Assembly (NCBI GenBank): GCA_902557935.1 | Contig: CACECJ010000009.1 | Coordinates: 1-33,714, forward strand | Origin: an uncultured Pelagibacteraceae bacterium | GTDB taxonomy: Bacteria > Pseudomonadota > Alphaproteobacteria > Pelagibacterales > Pelagibacteraceae | DNA: 33,714 nucleotides | Direction of reading: 5' to 3' | Shown here: positions 6,818-17,166 of the stretch, piece after piece | Numbering within the stretch: the first letter of the stretch is position 1 | Layout: every line of letters begins with the position of its first letter | The notes under the pieces: model-generated | Told to the model about the DNA's origin: nothing | The model's input: the letters and a program-made list of their open reading frames with translations, nothing else | Databases searched by the model: none | Program-made: the position numbers and the translations under genes

Positions 6818-7078
6818 ATGAAAAAAGTCACAATGTATACTGGCAATCCTTGCTCATTTTGTGCAGCAGCTAAAGCATTATTAAAAACAAAAAATGTTGA
6901 GATAGAGGAAATAGATATTTGGGCAGATCCAGCAAATGCTAAAGAAATGCTCCAAAGAACTAATGGTGTAAGAACTATTCCTCAAATTTTTATCGGCGAT
7001 CATTACATTGGTGGTAATGATAAACTTCAGGAAGCGAACAGAAACGGTGAATTAGATAAAATTTTAAAAGGAGAATGA
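6818..7078 (+). CDS. grxC: Glutaredoxin (GrxC type)
   Basis: This 86-residue thioredoxin-fold protein uses glutathione to reduce disulfides and mixed disulfides in the cytoplasm. The active-site pair is C12-S-F-C15 in NPCSFC (the usual sequence is CPYC). Thr53-Ile-Pro55 supplies the cis-proline of the TVPQIF motif, and GGNDKL (65-70) is the glutathione-binding GG-D motif. The length is typical of GrxC (82-90). The Pro-to-Ser and Tyr-to-Phe changes give CSFC in place of CPYC, which should alter redox potential but keep both cysteines. It is followed by msrB with an ATGA overlap. The gshA and gshB genes that make its electron donor lie about 5.5 kb downstream. Confidence 0.93.
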   Translation: MKKVTMYTGNPCSFCAAAKALLKTKNVEIEEIDIWADPANAKEMLQRTNGVRTIPQIFIGDHYIGGNDKLQEANRNGELDKILKGE

Positions 7079-7527
7079 GGAGAAATTTTTTAAAATATTT
7101 AAGCTTAACAATTTTTTCATCTTTTATTCTTCCTTTAAACTCACTACTTGCGAATACAAAGAAAATTATCAATAAAAATCTTACAAAAAAACAAAAAGAA
7201 ATAATGTTTAACGAGGGTACTGAAAGACCCTTTTCTAGTGATTTACTAAGAGAAAGTAGAAAGGGTTTTTATCATTGCGCTAATTGTGGAAACAAACTTT
7301 TTGCTTCTACTAGTAAATTCGATAGTGGTACTGGGTGGCCATCATTTTCTGAGGCTTTACCTGGAGCATTTAAAACTAAGATAGATTATAAATTTGGAAT
7401 GAAAAGAACAGAATATCATTGTGCTAAATGCGGCGGGCATCATGGACATGTCTTTAACGATGGACCGACAAAAAGTGGTAAAAGATTTTGCAATAATGGT
7501 CTTTGTTTAATTTTTAAACCTGAATAG
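7075..7527 (+). CDS. msrB: Peptide methionine (R)-S-oxide reductase MsrB, exported form
   Basis: This 150-residue protein reduces the R epimer of methionine sulfoxide. The N terminus MRRNFLKYLSLTIFSS has a twin-arginine-like motif (RRNFLK) and a hydrophobic core ending near LLANT (residue 28), so the enzyme is probably exported, by the Tat or Sec route. The catalytic domain has the two zinc-binding CxxC pairs (C68/C71 and C116/C119), the GTGWPSF motif (85-91) and the catalytic cysteine C139 in RFCNNG, with C144 nearby. It overlaps glutaredoxin by 4 bases, with a GGAG just before the start. A second MsrB without a signal is at 10961-11332. Periplasmic MsrB needs reductant from outside the cytoplasm, which the CcdA-like gene at 8432-9148 could supply. 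Confidence 0.93.
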   Translation: MRRNFLKYLSLTIFSSFILPLNSLLANTKKIINKNLTKKQKEIMFNEGTERPFSSDLLRESRKGFYHCANCGNKLFASTSKFDSGTGWPSFSEALPGAFKTKIDYKFGMKRTEYHCAKCGGHHGHVFNDGPTKSGKRFCNNGLCLIFKPE

Positions 7528-10960: not shown

Positions 10961-11332
10961 TTATTTTGGTTTAAACACTAAACAAACTCCGTTGTTACAA
11001 TATCTCTTTCCTGTAGGTTTTGGCCCATCATCAAAAACATGACCATGGTGTCCTCCACATTTTTTGCAATGGTATTCTGTTCTTGTATAGCCTATATGCA
11101 TATCTTTTTTTTCCTCGAAAACTCCAGGTAGTGAGTCGTAAAAAGATGGCCAACCTGAGCCACTCTCATATTTAGATGTAGACTCAAATAATTTTGTTCC
11201 ACACCCGACACAGTGATAAGAACCCTCTCTTTTTTCTTGATTTAAAGGACTACTACCTGGAGACTCCGTTCCCTCTTGTTTTAAAACATAATTTTGTTCT
11301 GGCGTTAAATTTGGATCCCAGTCTTTACTCAT
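10961..11332 (-). CDS. msrB: Peptide methionine (R)-S-oxide reductase MsrB, cytoplasmic form
   Basis: This 123-residue enzyme lacks a signal peptide. It has the zinc cysteines C41/C44 and C89/C92, the GSGWPSF motif (58-64) and catalytic C112 in RYCNNG with C117 in the same NNGxCL ending seen in the exported copy. It overlaps the end of cysE by 8 bases and abuts the FkbM gene, so all three share a transcript. It repairs free or protein-bound methionine R-sulfoxide in the cytoplasm. Its position beside cysteine, glutathione and methionine genes fits sulfur-amino-acid protection. The paralog at 7075 differs mainly by the export signal and a longer linker. Confidence 0.95.
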
Positions 11333-14570: not shown

Positions 14571-14577
14571 TTGACAG

Positions 14578-14607
14578 TTGACAAAATCCTGAATTTCTTG
14601 CTATAAA
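14578..14607 (+). promoter_or_regulatory. Near-consensus sigma-70 promoter for metY leader
   Basis: TTGACA (14578-14583) and TATAAA (14602-14607) are separated by 18 bases. Transcription should start near 14613-14615, exactly where the SAM-II aptamer begins. A second TTGACA lies 7 bases upstream (14571-14576) but is 25 bases from the -10 box and cannot pair with it. Confidence 0.85.
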
Positions 14608-14612
14608 TTTAA

Positions 14613-14664
14613 CAGCGCTGAGTTAAGGCAACTTGCGGGCGCTTAATAAATCCAGCTAAAGCGC
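14613..14664 (+). promoter_or_regulatory. SAM-II riboswitch aptamer upstream of metY
   Basis: The element matches the compact SAM-II pseudoknot aptamer. Stem P1 is formed by AGCGC (14614-14618) and GCGCT (14639-14643). The long loop is TGAGTTAAGGCAACTTGCGG, and the conserved 3' segment is AATAAATCCAGCTAAAG (14645-14661), close to the known AATAAATGTAGCTAAAAAG. The 3' strand GCTAAAGCG (14655-14663) is perfectly complementary over 9 bases to CGCTTTAGC (14683-14691) in the terminator, so it doubles as antiterminator. When SAM binds, this strand is held in the aptamer and the terminator can form. SAM-II elements control metY, metX and metA genes in alphaproteobacteria, which agrees with the gene downstream. 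Confidence 0.92.
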
Positions 14665-14677
14665 AATAGTCATTTAG

Positions 14678-14706
14678 ACCACCGCTTTAGCCGGTGGTTT
14701 TTTTTT
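14678..14706 (+). terminator. SAM-II-controlled intrinsic terminator
   Basis: ACCACCG (14678-14684) pairs perfectly with CGGTGGT (14692-14698) around a 7-base loop (CTTTAGC), followed by T residues to 14706. Loop and stem bases 14683-14691 are the alternative partner of the aptamer 3' strand, so terminator and antiterminator are mutually exclusive. It would also stop transcription reading in from gshB. Confidence 0.93.
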
Positions 14707-14728
14707 GGAAAAATCTGAAATTAAACTG

Positions 14729-14783
14729 GGTATTTGAACCATATTGTACACCTGGCATATGCCGAAGTACTAAAAAGGAGAAG
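14729..14783 (+). promoter_or_regulatory. SAM-V-like riboswitch in tandem with SAM-II
   Basis: Downstream of the terminator lies a second compact element. GTAC (14746-14749) pairs with GTAC (14767-14770) around a GGC/GCC hairpin (14754-14763), and the 3' tail ACTAAAAAGGAG (14769-14780) resembles the SAM-binding 3' tail of SAM-II (GCTAAAAAGG). CCT (14751-14753) can pseudoknot with AGG in the tail and hide the GGAG ribosome site. Tandem SAM-II/SAM-V leaders before metY are known in Pelagibacter, with SAM-V acting on translation. The boundaries given are approximate, and the match was made by eye. Confidence 0.65.
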
Positions 14784-14838
14784 ATGAACAGAATTAACTT
14801 CGTTCATTCTTCTCCAGAAAGACGGAGAAAAAATGAAC
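14777..14838 (+). promoter_or_regulatory. Three-strand alternative hairpin between SAM-V element and metY
   Basis: Strand A GGAGAAGATGAAC (14777-14789), strand B GTTCATTCTTCTCC (14802-14815) and strand C GGAGAAAAAATGAAC (14824-14838) are arranged so that B can pair with either A or C. A:B is 13 bp with one bulged base. C:B is 12 bp around a small internal loop. Strands A and C each contain a GGAG ribosome site and an ATG-AAC start. Choosing one hairpin therefore hides one start site and frees the other. The structure is read directly; its regulatory use is inferred. Confidence 0.6.
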
Positions 14839-14951
14839 GAAACGATAAGAGAAACAGTAAGGGGGAAAATCAATGGCTGATTTTAAACATCCGGAAACTA
14901 TTGGCTTGCATGGTAGTGATTATAGAGCTGATCCTACTACAACAGCTGTAG
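14784..14951 (+). CDS. Possible leader ORF A (55 codons), overlaps metY out of frame
   Basis: An ORF starts at ATG 14784, 3 bases after the GGAG of the SAM-V-like element. It encodes 55 residues beginning MNRINFVHSSPERRRKNE and runs 79 bases into metY in another frame. The spacing from GGAG is short, and the predicted peptide is basic then hydrophobic with no known family. It may be a regulatory reading frame whose translation affects access to the metY start, or simply chance. Its start is inside strand A of the alternative hairpin. Confidence 0.3.
   Translation: MNRINFVHSSPERRRKNERNDKRNSKGENQWLILNIRKLLACMVVIIELILLQQL
14833..14880 (+). CDS. Possible leader peptide B (15 residues) coupled to metY
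   Basis: ATG at 14833 is preceded by GGAG (14824-14827) at an ideal 5-base spacing and encodes MNETIRETVRGKING. The TGA stop (14878-14880) lies inside the first codons of metY, overlapping it by 8 bases. That geometry suits translational coupling, with ribosomes ending B and restarting at the metY ATG. Its start is hidden in the C:B hairpin. There is no resemblance to a known peptide and no run of a regulatory codon such as Met. Confidence 0.35.
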   Translation: MNETIRETVRGKING

Positions 14952-16165
14952 CAGTTCCTATTTACCAAACAACTTCTTACCAATTTAAAAACGCAGAACA
15001 TGCTGCAAATTTATTTGGTCTAAAAGAGTTTGGTAACATTTACACACGTATAATGAACCCAACTGTAGATGTGCTAGAAAAAAGAGTTGCAGCGCTTGAA
15101 GGCGGTGTAGCGGCATGCGCGGTGGGATCAGGTCAAGCAGCTTCAGCAATGTGCATACAAAACTTGGCACAAGCGGGAGATAACATTGTTGCGTCGACTG
15201 ATTTATATGGAGGTACAGTTAACTTATTTAAAAATACTTTAAGACAACAAGGTATTGAAGTTAGATTTGCAGATCCTGCAGATCCAAAAAATTTTGAAAA
15301 AGTAACTGATGATAAAACTAGAGCTTACTACGGTGAGACTCTTCCAAATCCATATCTTCGTGTTTTTCCAATTAAAGAAGTTTCAGATATCGGTAGAAAA
15401 AAAGGTATCCCTTTAATTATCGATAACACAGCTTCACCAGTAATATGTAAACCTTTAGCTCATGGAGCTGCCATTGTAATGCACTCTTTGACTAAGTATA
15501 TTGGTGGTCATGGTACTTCAATTGGAGGAATAATTGTAGATGGAGGAAATTTTGATTGGATTAAAGATAGAAAAAGACAACCTCTATTAAATGAGCCAGA
15601 TCAAAGTTATCACGGTGCAGTTTGGGCAGATGCAGTACCACAATTAACCGGTGCTAATATTCCATTTGTTATCAGAGCAAGAGTGGTTTTATTGAGAGAC
15701 TTAGGAGCTCCATTAAGTCCATTCAATGCTTTTCAAATCATTCAAGGTTTGGAAACTGTAGCTTTAAGAATGAAACAACATTGTAGCAATGCAGAGAAAG
15801 TTGTGAATTTCTTAGATGGTCACAAAAAAGTTAAAAAGGTTATCTATCCGACTAATTATCAAGGTGAAATTAGAGATAGAGCTAAAAAATATATGCAAGG
15901 CGGTTATGGATCTTTAATAGGTATGGATCTAGGAACAAAAGAAGCAGGAGCTAAGTTCATTGACAACTTAAAAATGCTTTACCACGTAGCAAATATTGGT
16001 GATGCTAGAAGTTTAGCAATTCACCCAGCAACAACAACGCATAGTCAGCTTACAGAGAAAGAAATGTTGGCTGCTGGTGTTACACCAGGTTATGTCAGAT
16101 TATCGATTGGTATAGAACATCCAGACGATATTGTTGCAGATATCAATCAAGCTTTAGCTGCTTAA
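14873..16165 (+). CDS. metY: O-acetylhomoserine sulfhydrylase MetY
   Basis: This 430-residue PLP enzyme makes homocysteine from O-acetylhomoserine and sulfide, or methionine from methanethiol. It is a Cys/Met-metabolism PLP enzyme. GSGQAASAMCIQN (85-97) lies near the cofactor phosphate, NPYLRV (159-164) and LIIDNTAS (181-188) contribute the cofactor Asp, and the PLP lysine is K208 in HSLTKYIGGHG. The C-terminal IATTTHSQL-like block is present as IHPATTTHSQLTEKE. The length fits MetY (about 425-430) rather than MetB/MetZ (about 390). The start has a GGGGG ribosome site. Expression is under the SAM-II and SAM-V-like leader, so high SAM should repress it. Confidence 0.95.
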   Translation: MADFKHPETIGLHGSDYRADPTTTAVAVPIYQTTSYQFKNAEHAANLFGLKEFGNIYTRIMNPTVDVLEKRVAALEGGVAACAVGSGQAASAMCIQNLAQAGDNIVASTDLYGGTVNLFKNTLRQQGIEVRFADPADPKNFEKVTDDKTRAYYGETLPNPYLRVFPIKEVSDIGRKKGIPLIIDNTASPVICKPLAHGAAIVMHSLTKYIGGHGTSIGGIIVDGGNFDWIKDRKRQPLLNEPDQSYHGAVWADAVPQLTGANIPFVIRARVVLLRDLGAPLSPFNAFQIIQGLETVALRMKQHCSNAEKVVNFLDGHKKVKKVIYPTNYQGEIRDRAKKYMQGGYGSLIGMDLGTKEAGAKFIDNLKMLYHVANIGDARSLAIHPATTTHSQLTEKEMLAAGVTPGYVRLSIGIEHPDDIVADINQALAA

Positions 16166-16220: not shown

Positions 16221-16628
16221 TTACCTTCTATTATAAATAATTGATTTCTTTGCTATCTTTTCAATCTTAGATATTTCTTTAATTTTATTTTTTGGAAATT
16301 CTTTCACTAGTTCTGCAGTTTTTTCTACCATAGCAGAACTTTTGGACTTAATTTGTTTTTTTACAATTGTGCAAAATTCAGACCTTGTTATCTCAAAAGA
16401 AGAAATACAGGTTTCTTTTTTTCTCTCTGGATTTTTTTCTTCTGCGTAAGAAATAGCGTGTTCCAAAGGAGTTTTTCCTGTTTGTTTTTTAACTCCATAA
16501 CTTACTGCTGAATTAAGAGAAGACTGTAATATTTTTCCGTTAGATGTGCCAGTACCGAGTAATGCTAAAGATTCAGCGCACCCATTAAGTAAGAAAATCG
16601 TTGATAATAAAATTAATATTTTTTTCAT
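16221..16628 (-). CDS. Small lipoprotein, paralog of the gene at 16765
   Basis: This 135-residue protein starts with a lipoprotein signal (MKKILILLSTIFLLNGC, lipobox LNGC with the lipidated Cys at 17). It shares the same core with its neighbour: CAESLALLG after the lipobox, then YGVKKQTGKTPLEHAISYAE (near 44-63), NPERKKETC and a second Cys (FCTIV). The C-terminal third is lysine-rich and diverges. I recognise no family and assign no function. It has its own strong promoter (TTGACA/TAAAAT). The distance between the two paralogs is 136 bases. It is convergent with metY. Confidence 0.75.
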   Translation of the reverse strand: MKKILILLSTIFLLNGCAESLALLGTGTSNGKILQSSLNSAVSYGVKKQTGKTPLEHAISYAEEKNPERKKETCISSFEITRSEFCTIVKKQIKSKSSAMVEKTAELVKEFPKNKIKEISKIEKIAKKSIIYNRR

Positions 16629-16764: not shown

Positions 16765-17166
16765 TTAATCTAAGTACTTAATTTTAGATTTTTTATTTAT
16801 GTTAGGCTGAAGAGATGAAGTAAGGTCTTTAATAGATCTTTCTTTTGATTTCTTTAATATCTTTGATTTAGTTATTTTCAATTGATTTTTCACAATAGCG
16901 CAAATTTCTGAATTAGTTTTTTCAGCAAATGATAAGCAAGGCTCTTTCTTTTTCTCCGGGTTCATTTCTTCGGCATATGTCATTGCATGTTCCATTGGGC
17001 TTTTTCCAGTTTGTTTTTTTACTCCATAATTTACTGCTGAAGAAAGAGCTGACTGGGCAATGTTTCCACCAGTTACTGCTGTAGAAGTAGGTCCTAATAG
17101 AGCTAAAGACTCAGCACAACCTGTTAATAAAGTAAATCCAAGCAAAAAGCCTAAAATTTTTTTCAT
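16765..17166 (-). CDS. Small lipoprotein, paralog of the gene at 16221
   Basis: This 133-residue protein has the lipobox LTGC with lipidated Cys at 17 (MKKILGFLLGFTLLTGC). It has the shared core CAESLALLGPTSTAV, YGVKKQTGKSPMEHAMTYAE and NPEKKKEPC, with a second Cys in EICAIV. Two conserved cysteines outside the lipobox could form a disulfide. The C-terminal tail is basic. Tandem arrangement with the next gene indicates a local duplication. The start has a GGGAG site before ATG. A 28-base hairpin lies 35 bases upstream. Function unknown. Confidence 0.75.
   Translation of the reverse strand: MKKILGFLLGFTLLTGCAESLALLGPTSTAVTGGNIAQSALSSAVNYGVKKQTGKSPMEHAMTYAEEMNPEKKKEPCLSFAEKTNSEICAIVKNQLKITKSKILKKSKERSIKDLTSSLQPNINKKSKIKYLD

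Follow-up and report, generated by a model that had tools for sequence, protein, structure and literature searches.

A candidate two-stage switch between a SAM-V riboswitch and metY in Pelagibacteraceae, with a mini-ORF as its second stage

Tandem SAM-II/SAM-V riboswitches are composed of a SAM-II element, an intrinsic terminator and then a SAM-V element that controls the RBS (PMC9481103). The SAM-V motif sits at most about ten nucleotides from the start codon (PMC2704228), and in the SAM-V structure the start of the SD is part of a 2-bp helix, P2a, formed with SAM (PMC6061858). In the available text of these three papers and of PMC11508383, SAM-V is described as hiding the adjacent SD directly, and no mention was found of the two further arms, B and C, that are analysed here. 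The available description of the B12 riboswitch-uORF of ppe2 in Mycobacterium tuberculosis calls it a ‘relay’: the stop of a short uORF overlaps the start of the main gene, which is translated by termination-reinitiation (PMC11260477). In the SAM-II riboswitch of Sinorhizobium meliloti metA, as far as the available text goes, the SD inside the riboswitch acts on a start codon located well downstream of it (PMC9373788).

The metY leader studied in this work has elements of each of these systems. The tandem riboswitch upstream of bhmT in HTCC1062 shares its architecture, with a SAM-II-like element, a terminator, a SAM-V and the same arms A, B and C, but in that leader C provides the bhmT gene with its SD and no mini-ORF lies between. 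The metY leader shares with ppe2 the overlap of a short ORF stop with the main-gene start; it differs in ligand and aptamer, in the SD that metY has of its own and ppe2 lacks, in an additional bistable anti-SD hairpin and, often, in a second short ORF upstream (compared with the available text of PMC11260477). Like metA, metY is a methionine gene whose start codon lies far downstream of the riboswitch SD that appears to act on it, whereas in metA AUG2 is in frame with AUG1, and the available text of PMC9373788 describes neither a mini-ORF with a stop/start overlap nor A/B/C arms. No description of such a SAM-V two-step relay was found in the literature searched, a search whose scope lay outside the original SAM-V paper (Poiata 2009). 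An earlier sequence-only reading of this DNA knew of no description of such a control layer; this holds for SAM-V in the literature searched, where the SAM-V version is apparently undescribed, but riboswitch-to-uORF relays as such had already been published (PMC11260477, in its available text).

The metY leader and its relatives

The window, the whole stretch of 33,714 nucleotides that was analysed, comes from a SAR11 genome assembly of 926,619 bases in 36 contigs (83% complete). Its metY gene (14873-16165) belongs to the O-acetylhomoserine aminocarboxypropyltransferase family (TIGR01326, 574 bits, cut-off 495; PF01053) and is preceded by a glutamate-cysteine ligase-like gene, which scored below the NCBIfam cut-off, a glutathione synthase gene and the leader. 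All the leader features are on the plus strand, in the order SAM-II-like element, terminator, SAM-V, A, B, C, ORF B and metY. The covariance model placed a SAM-V aptamer at 14719-14783 (RF01826, 72.2 bits, E 3.9e-10), above the gathering score of 41. The upstream element (14605-14679) scored 20.1 bits with RF00521, under the gathering score of 36, and is named SAM-II-like only. It is followed by a terminator-like stem with a T run (14676-14706, stem 14676-14700), and a GGTGG-T7 terminator string was present 3' of the SAM-II-like element in 66/66 window-type leaders. Of the published tandem layout, the terminator and SAM-V are present at metY, and the first element is under the Rfam score. Two overlapping TTGACA strings (14571-14607) and a TATAA at 14602 lie 5' of the leader; the promoter scan reported none.

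The 3' end of SAM-V extends into arm A (14777-14789), which carries the SD-like GGAG of SAM-V and an AUG and was identified by sequence, folding and alignment as a partner of B. The distance from GGAG to this ATG is 7 nt, within the range described for SAM-V, but this ATG opens ORF A (14784-14951), which has 55 codons in the window and is not in the metY frame; the metY start is 90 nt further on. Arm B (14802-14815; folding, alignment and shuffles) is the anti-SD, a partner of A or C. Arm C (14824-14838) is composed of an SD, GGAG (14824-14827), and the AUG of ORF B, and is equivalent to the bhmT SD in bhmT leaders. ORF B (14833-14880) is a 15-codon mini-ORF (MNETIRETVRGKING), and its TGA (14878-14880) is located just 3' of the metY ATG (14873). 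Direct reading of the window sequence confirmed the three blocks and ORF B as they had been described in the sequence-only reading. By eye, metY has an SD-like AGGGGG of its own within ORF B (14860-14865). An intrinsic terminator at A:B was discarded, as no T run follows B and the terminator-like sites are at 14676-14700 only.

SAM-V was detected at E up to 0.001 in at least 190 of the 297 Pelagibacteraceae genomes searched. The exact A motif was present in 55 named Pelagibacteraceae contigs, almost all from single-cell genomes or MAGs, including one of Candidatus Pelagibacter ubique SCGC AAA795-E07. The 100 leaders retrieved fell mainly into two groups: simple leaders, with the SAM-V SD directly 5' of metY, and long leaders with A/B/C, which precede either metY (window type) or bhmT. 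One leader tally consisted of 37 metY and 13 bhmT leaders (L050 counted as a metY leader), and the addition of loci from window-like sequence searches gave 59 distinct window-type leaders. Many loci were found with window-like queries, and the shares of the types among genomes are consequently not abundance estimates; the genomes compared (G numbers) are often incomplete. Locus L021 has a SAM-V with A and B arms and no long ORF detected downstream, and is possibly a decayed locus. In two SAM-V-like bhmT leaders from other genera (L276, L284) the leader is much longer, with GGAG..AATGAGCAA and then TTGCTCATT..CTCC about 100 nt on; by eye, these arms may represent a third version of A:B, separated by a long region of short ORFs.

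Arms A, B and C

Arm B pairs with A or with C, in agreement with the sequence-only reading, and does so at nearly the same energy. The mean pairing energy over the 59 distinct leaders was -17.6 kcal/mol for A:B and -17.0 kcal/mol for B:C (A:B minus B:C -0.5 kcal/mol, sd 0.7). In 5000 dinucleotide shuffles of the window B arm, pairing as good as that of the real arm was obtained with A at a frequency of 0.0058, with C at 0.0082 and with both at 0.0004. Positions 14777-14838 fold as the A:B hairpin (-18.7 kcal/mol, z -4.1; 1/200 shuffles equal), and when A was masked the leader refolded into B:C in the folding prediction. Energies, shuffles and masking agree in describing B as the anti-SD of a bistable platform, one strand that pairs with either the aptamer-proximal strand or the SD.

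Neither hairpin was lost in the relatives: standard pairs occupy 99.5% of the A:B cells and 98.4% of the B:C cells of the 59-row alignment. Double-sided changes in this alignment affected two A:B pairs, in one row each, and no B:C pair, and the variation within the genus is too small to prove either pairing. Covariation, which the sequence-only reading had put forward as a check for both hairpins, was present for A:B across clades and hardly so for B:C. Among nine exemplars of the window and bhmT types, not all of them independent, the A:B arms paired better with their own partners than with permuted ones (p 1e-5, or 5e-5 when the GGAG/CTCC core was left out), while the same test gave p 0.018 for B:C (0.18 without the core). 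Covariation of A:B across clades thus appears well supported; that of B:C seems weak, its support resting mainly on the SD/anti-SD core.

The predicted openness of the C SD depends strongly on the first part of A. Masking only the two G's of A that would enter P2a lowered the predicted mean probability that the C SD is unpaired from 0.45 to 0.01 in the 59 window-type leaders, and the predicted openness from 0.22 to 0.00 in 15 bhmT leaders and from 0.41 to 0.03 in 5 bhmT leaders of another genus. At the predicted equilibrium, leaving A free did not suffice to open C in most of the ensemble for 10 of the 15 bhmT leaders, nor for L062 and L269; for these leaders the model would therefore need co-transcriptional folding, with A:B formed first. 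The small size of P2a (only 2 bp, against 13 bp in A:B) also counts against the model. The aptamer base opposite the second G in P2a is C in 66/66 window-type and 17/17 readable bhmT-type leaders and T in 53/53 readable simple leaders, indicating that the aptamer of the window is of the bhmT kind. The same base was discarded as a rule for all SAM-V: it fails outside the TTGAAC kind, and C is likewise present in direct SAM-V-like bhmT leaders outside the genus (TTTAAC kind, for example L273).

On balance, these features favour a two-stage translational switch, in which SAM-V with its bistable platform would be the first stage and ORF B, coupled to metY, the second. Without SAM, A (GGAG) would pair with B, and C, the SD of ORF B, would be left open. 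With SAM, P2a would hold the first G's of A and tip the near-balanced contest, and B would pair with C. We infer that C serves ORF B and not metY directly: ribosomes ending ORF B, whose stop follows the metY AUG by 3 to 5 nt, would open the metY start and re-initiate. At high SAM, C, ORF B and metY would all be closed. Control of leader peptide B and metY by SAM-V and the hairpins had been proposed in the sequence-only reading; the two exclusive hairpins and the conserved ORF B agree with that proposal at the level of sequence, but the role it gave to ORF A is weakened.

ORF A, ORF B and the start of metY

ORF A had been seen as a 55-codon frame crossing the metY start, and its start site as the decider between the hairpins. 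The frame exists in the window, but it is the minority state: 42/59 window-type leaders have an ORF A of 16-17 codons that stops on the ORF B start with an ATGA overlap, and the other 17/59, including the window, do not; the 55 codons of the window derive from a loop one base shorter than in the majority. Conservation of ORF A as a coding sequence is consequently unsupported as a rule. The ORF A start codon is present in 59/59 window-type leaders (58 ATG, 1 GTG), even in L062, where paired B bases are altered, and is tied to B in the A:B stem. In the bhmT leaders of the genus, ORF A has 20-21 codons in 14/14 distinct leaders, and its end lies 4 or 8 nt 3' of the first nucleotide of the bhmT start codon; this regularity is probably partly automatic, as ATGAGTAA has stops in both non-bhmT frames. 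Three of the 5 other-genus A/B/C bhmT leaders have no AUG behind A (L266, L267) or have it at 13 nt (L269), and since none of the three has an AUG within 12 nt behind A, the switch does not seem to need ORF A. The unkept frame, the leaders lacking this AUG and the tied start codon weaken the idea of the first start site as decider.

The same observations bear on an explanation in which ribosomes, and not the hairpins, pass on the signal. SAM-V would hide the SD of ORF A; without SAM, translation of ORF A would melt the hairpins and be followed by re-initiation at the start of ORF B or bhmT, and the hairpins would only bar unprimed ribosomes from C. The ATGA overlaps, the ORF A ends at bhmT and the universal start codon would be expected in that case, and ppe2 offers a published precedent (PMC11260477, in its available text). 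We nevertheless regard this explanation as unlikely: the window itself is among the leaders without the overlap, the regularity at bhmT is partly automatic, L266 and L267 keep A/B/C with no AUG to translate from, and the SD of ORF A is buried in A:B.

In the two-stage switch, the second stage would be ORF B. It is intact, with its stop at +8 of metY, in 59/59 distinct window-type leaders. When metY was located by protein motif, ORF B was found in 66/66 window-type tips and in 0/54 simple SAM-V metY leaders; this independent count was free of the GA at metY codon 3 that some ORF B/ORF A search patterns required, favouring TGA, and it agrees with them. The conserved overlap between a uORF stop and the main-gene start that characterises riboswitch-uORF relays is therefore present throughout the window-type leaders and tips; conservation of this overlap had been named as a check in the sequence-only reading. 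Among the bhmT-type tips, ORF B was present within 43 nt in 18/19, and in the 19th (L253) it starts at -47 and has a TAATG overlap. All the distinct bhmT-metY spacers (15/15) carry ORF B. In L142-L144 the order is SAM-V, A/B/C, bhmT, ORF B and metY, and ORF B is preceded by a GGAGG of its own. Both L253 and L254 keep the overlap with metY in a different frame, as TAATG; in L254, a single genome, the gene 5' of ORF B resembles a methionine synthase (weak family matches).

Parsimony on a 64-tip tree placed 100 substitutions in the 40 nt of ORF B and none in its start codon, and no tip has a premature stop. This outcome has a probability of about 2.4e-4 under a simple neutral model, which assumes uniform and independent changes although the tips are related. 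The peptide itself is free to vary: 11 synonymous and 24 nonsynonymous changes were counted versus 7.7 and 23.8 expected, and the 59 leaders encode 30 different ORF B peptides. Selection seems to act on translation and stop position, not on peptide content. As the peptide is near-neutral while start, frame and stop overlap are kept, ORF B probably acts in translational coupling and not through its peptide. The listed peptides contain no Cys and no Met run beyond the start, and an amino-acid-sensing attenuating leader peptide was discarded on this composition. The similar starts of ORF B and bhmT raised the possibility of a relic of the bhmT N-terminus, which was discarded because intact bhmT has a separate ORF B behind it.

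The start of metY is conserved where ORF B ends. Codon 2 of metY changed 12 times at position 1 and never at position 3, the T of TGA, in the window-type tips; position 3 is T in 85/85 tips with ORF B versus 34/54 simple tips. Position 3 of codon 3 was likewise unchanged in the window-type tips. This conservation may partly reflect a weak start hairpin, a possible 7-bp AAAATCA-AUGGC-UGAUUUU structure (14866-14884) with the metY AUG in its loop. The comparison of this hairpin gave one double change (L042), several G-U pairs and some breaks, and we do not consider it an established element.

The hairpins could alternatively be RNA-stability or spacer elements, with ORF B as a by-product of a conserved, A-rich and unstructured metY start region. 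The unconserved peptide and the little variation of the hairpin arms within the genus would fit such an origin. It would hardly account for a start codon and stop overlap that survive 100 substitutions, for the overlap kept through a different frame in L253 and L254, or for A:B covariation across clades, and we consider it very improbable. Recruitment of 30S subunits by the GGAG of A with initiation at a later AUG, B and C being secondary, has a parallel in the Sinorhizobium metA SAM-II riboswitch, whose SD is needed for translation starting 74 nt downstream (PMC9373788, in its available text), but is most improbable at a locus where the A:B stem takes up A, B has kept its complementarity to A as well as to C, a second SD (C) lies 5' of ORF B and metY has the SD-like AGGGGG.

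The connection with bhmT

The A/B/C arms are common to the SAM-V leaders of bhmT, including that of HTCC1062 (L124, the same as L265; genome G026 was taken as HTCC1062 from the SAM-V positions within the IGRs of Table 1 in the available text of PMC2704228). The sequence-only reading had regarded these arms as a third layer behind tandem SAM-II/SAM-V. Shared as they are with bhmT leaders, they more plausibly form the expression platform belonging to SAM-V, and the extra layer would be ORF B.

This platform bears on the 177-nt HTCC1062 construct, whose end was deduced by placing three primers from the available text of PMC11508383 on the L124/L265 leader. By this deduction the construct extends as far as the AUG behind A and lacks B and C, and bhmT starts at construct position 233. 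The AUG at its end is not in the bhmT frame and precedes the start of that gene by 55 nt. In the window and in HTCC1062 bhmT, the real SD of the gene is located 60-100 nt downstream, and access to it appears to depend on the bistable hairpin; a construct stopping at the first AUG could therefore not reveal the proposed bistable switch, and the odd in vitro behaviour of the tandem parts may deserve a retest on longer RNA.

Full-length bhmT matches were found in at least 18 of 169 genus genomes, and the window's own genome (83% complete) was not among these. None of the 35 window-type relatives came from the 18 bhmT genomes, among the matches listed (compared by eye). One simple-type genome, G265, had a partial bhmT match only (query residues 117-213, 63% identity). 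On the tree, loci of the window type are intermingled with those of the bhmT type, with 14 context changes by parsimony and several low supports, and a single clean loss of bhmT is consequently unsupported; bhmT may have been lost repeatedly, or lineages may have exchanged the locus. Loss of bhmT between C and ORF B, whether single, repeated or by locus exchange, would explain the parts found in the window. In the window lineage, where bhmT is missing between C and ORF B, metY would be run by a bhmT-type riboswitch, and a change from bhmT to metY is a tentative direction of evolution.

A more specific form of the two-stage switch would be a SAM-gated relay: the A/B/C flip gates a peptide-indifferent ORF B that alone licenses metY, ORF A, which uses the SD of the aptamer, is chained upstream in most relatives, and the whole is a movable module. 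This form is conceivable, and we lean slightly against it. If true, a switch plus mini-ORF adaptor would move a riboswitch from bhmT to metY with no need to adapt the anti-SD to a different start site, and the mini-ORF could let a streamlined genome apply a ready-made riboswitch to a different gene. SAR11 rank with the most abundant bacteria. Methionine supply is a reported SAR11 response to sulfur limitation (PMC5069961, in its available text).

Downstream of metY, the window has two adjacent small lipoprotein-like genes on the minus strand (16221-16628 and 16765-17166) with a common GCAESLALLG start; the first of them (16221-16628) matched nothing in NCBIfam or Pfam. Near metY, the window also has two genes for MsrB-type methionine sulfoxide reductases within 4 kb of each other (7075-7527, plus strand; 10961-11332, minus strand).
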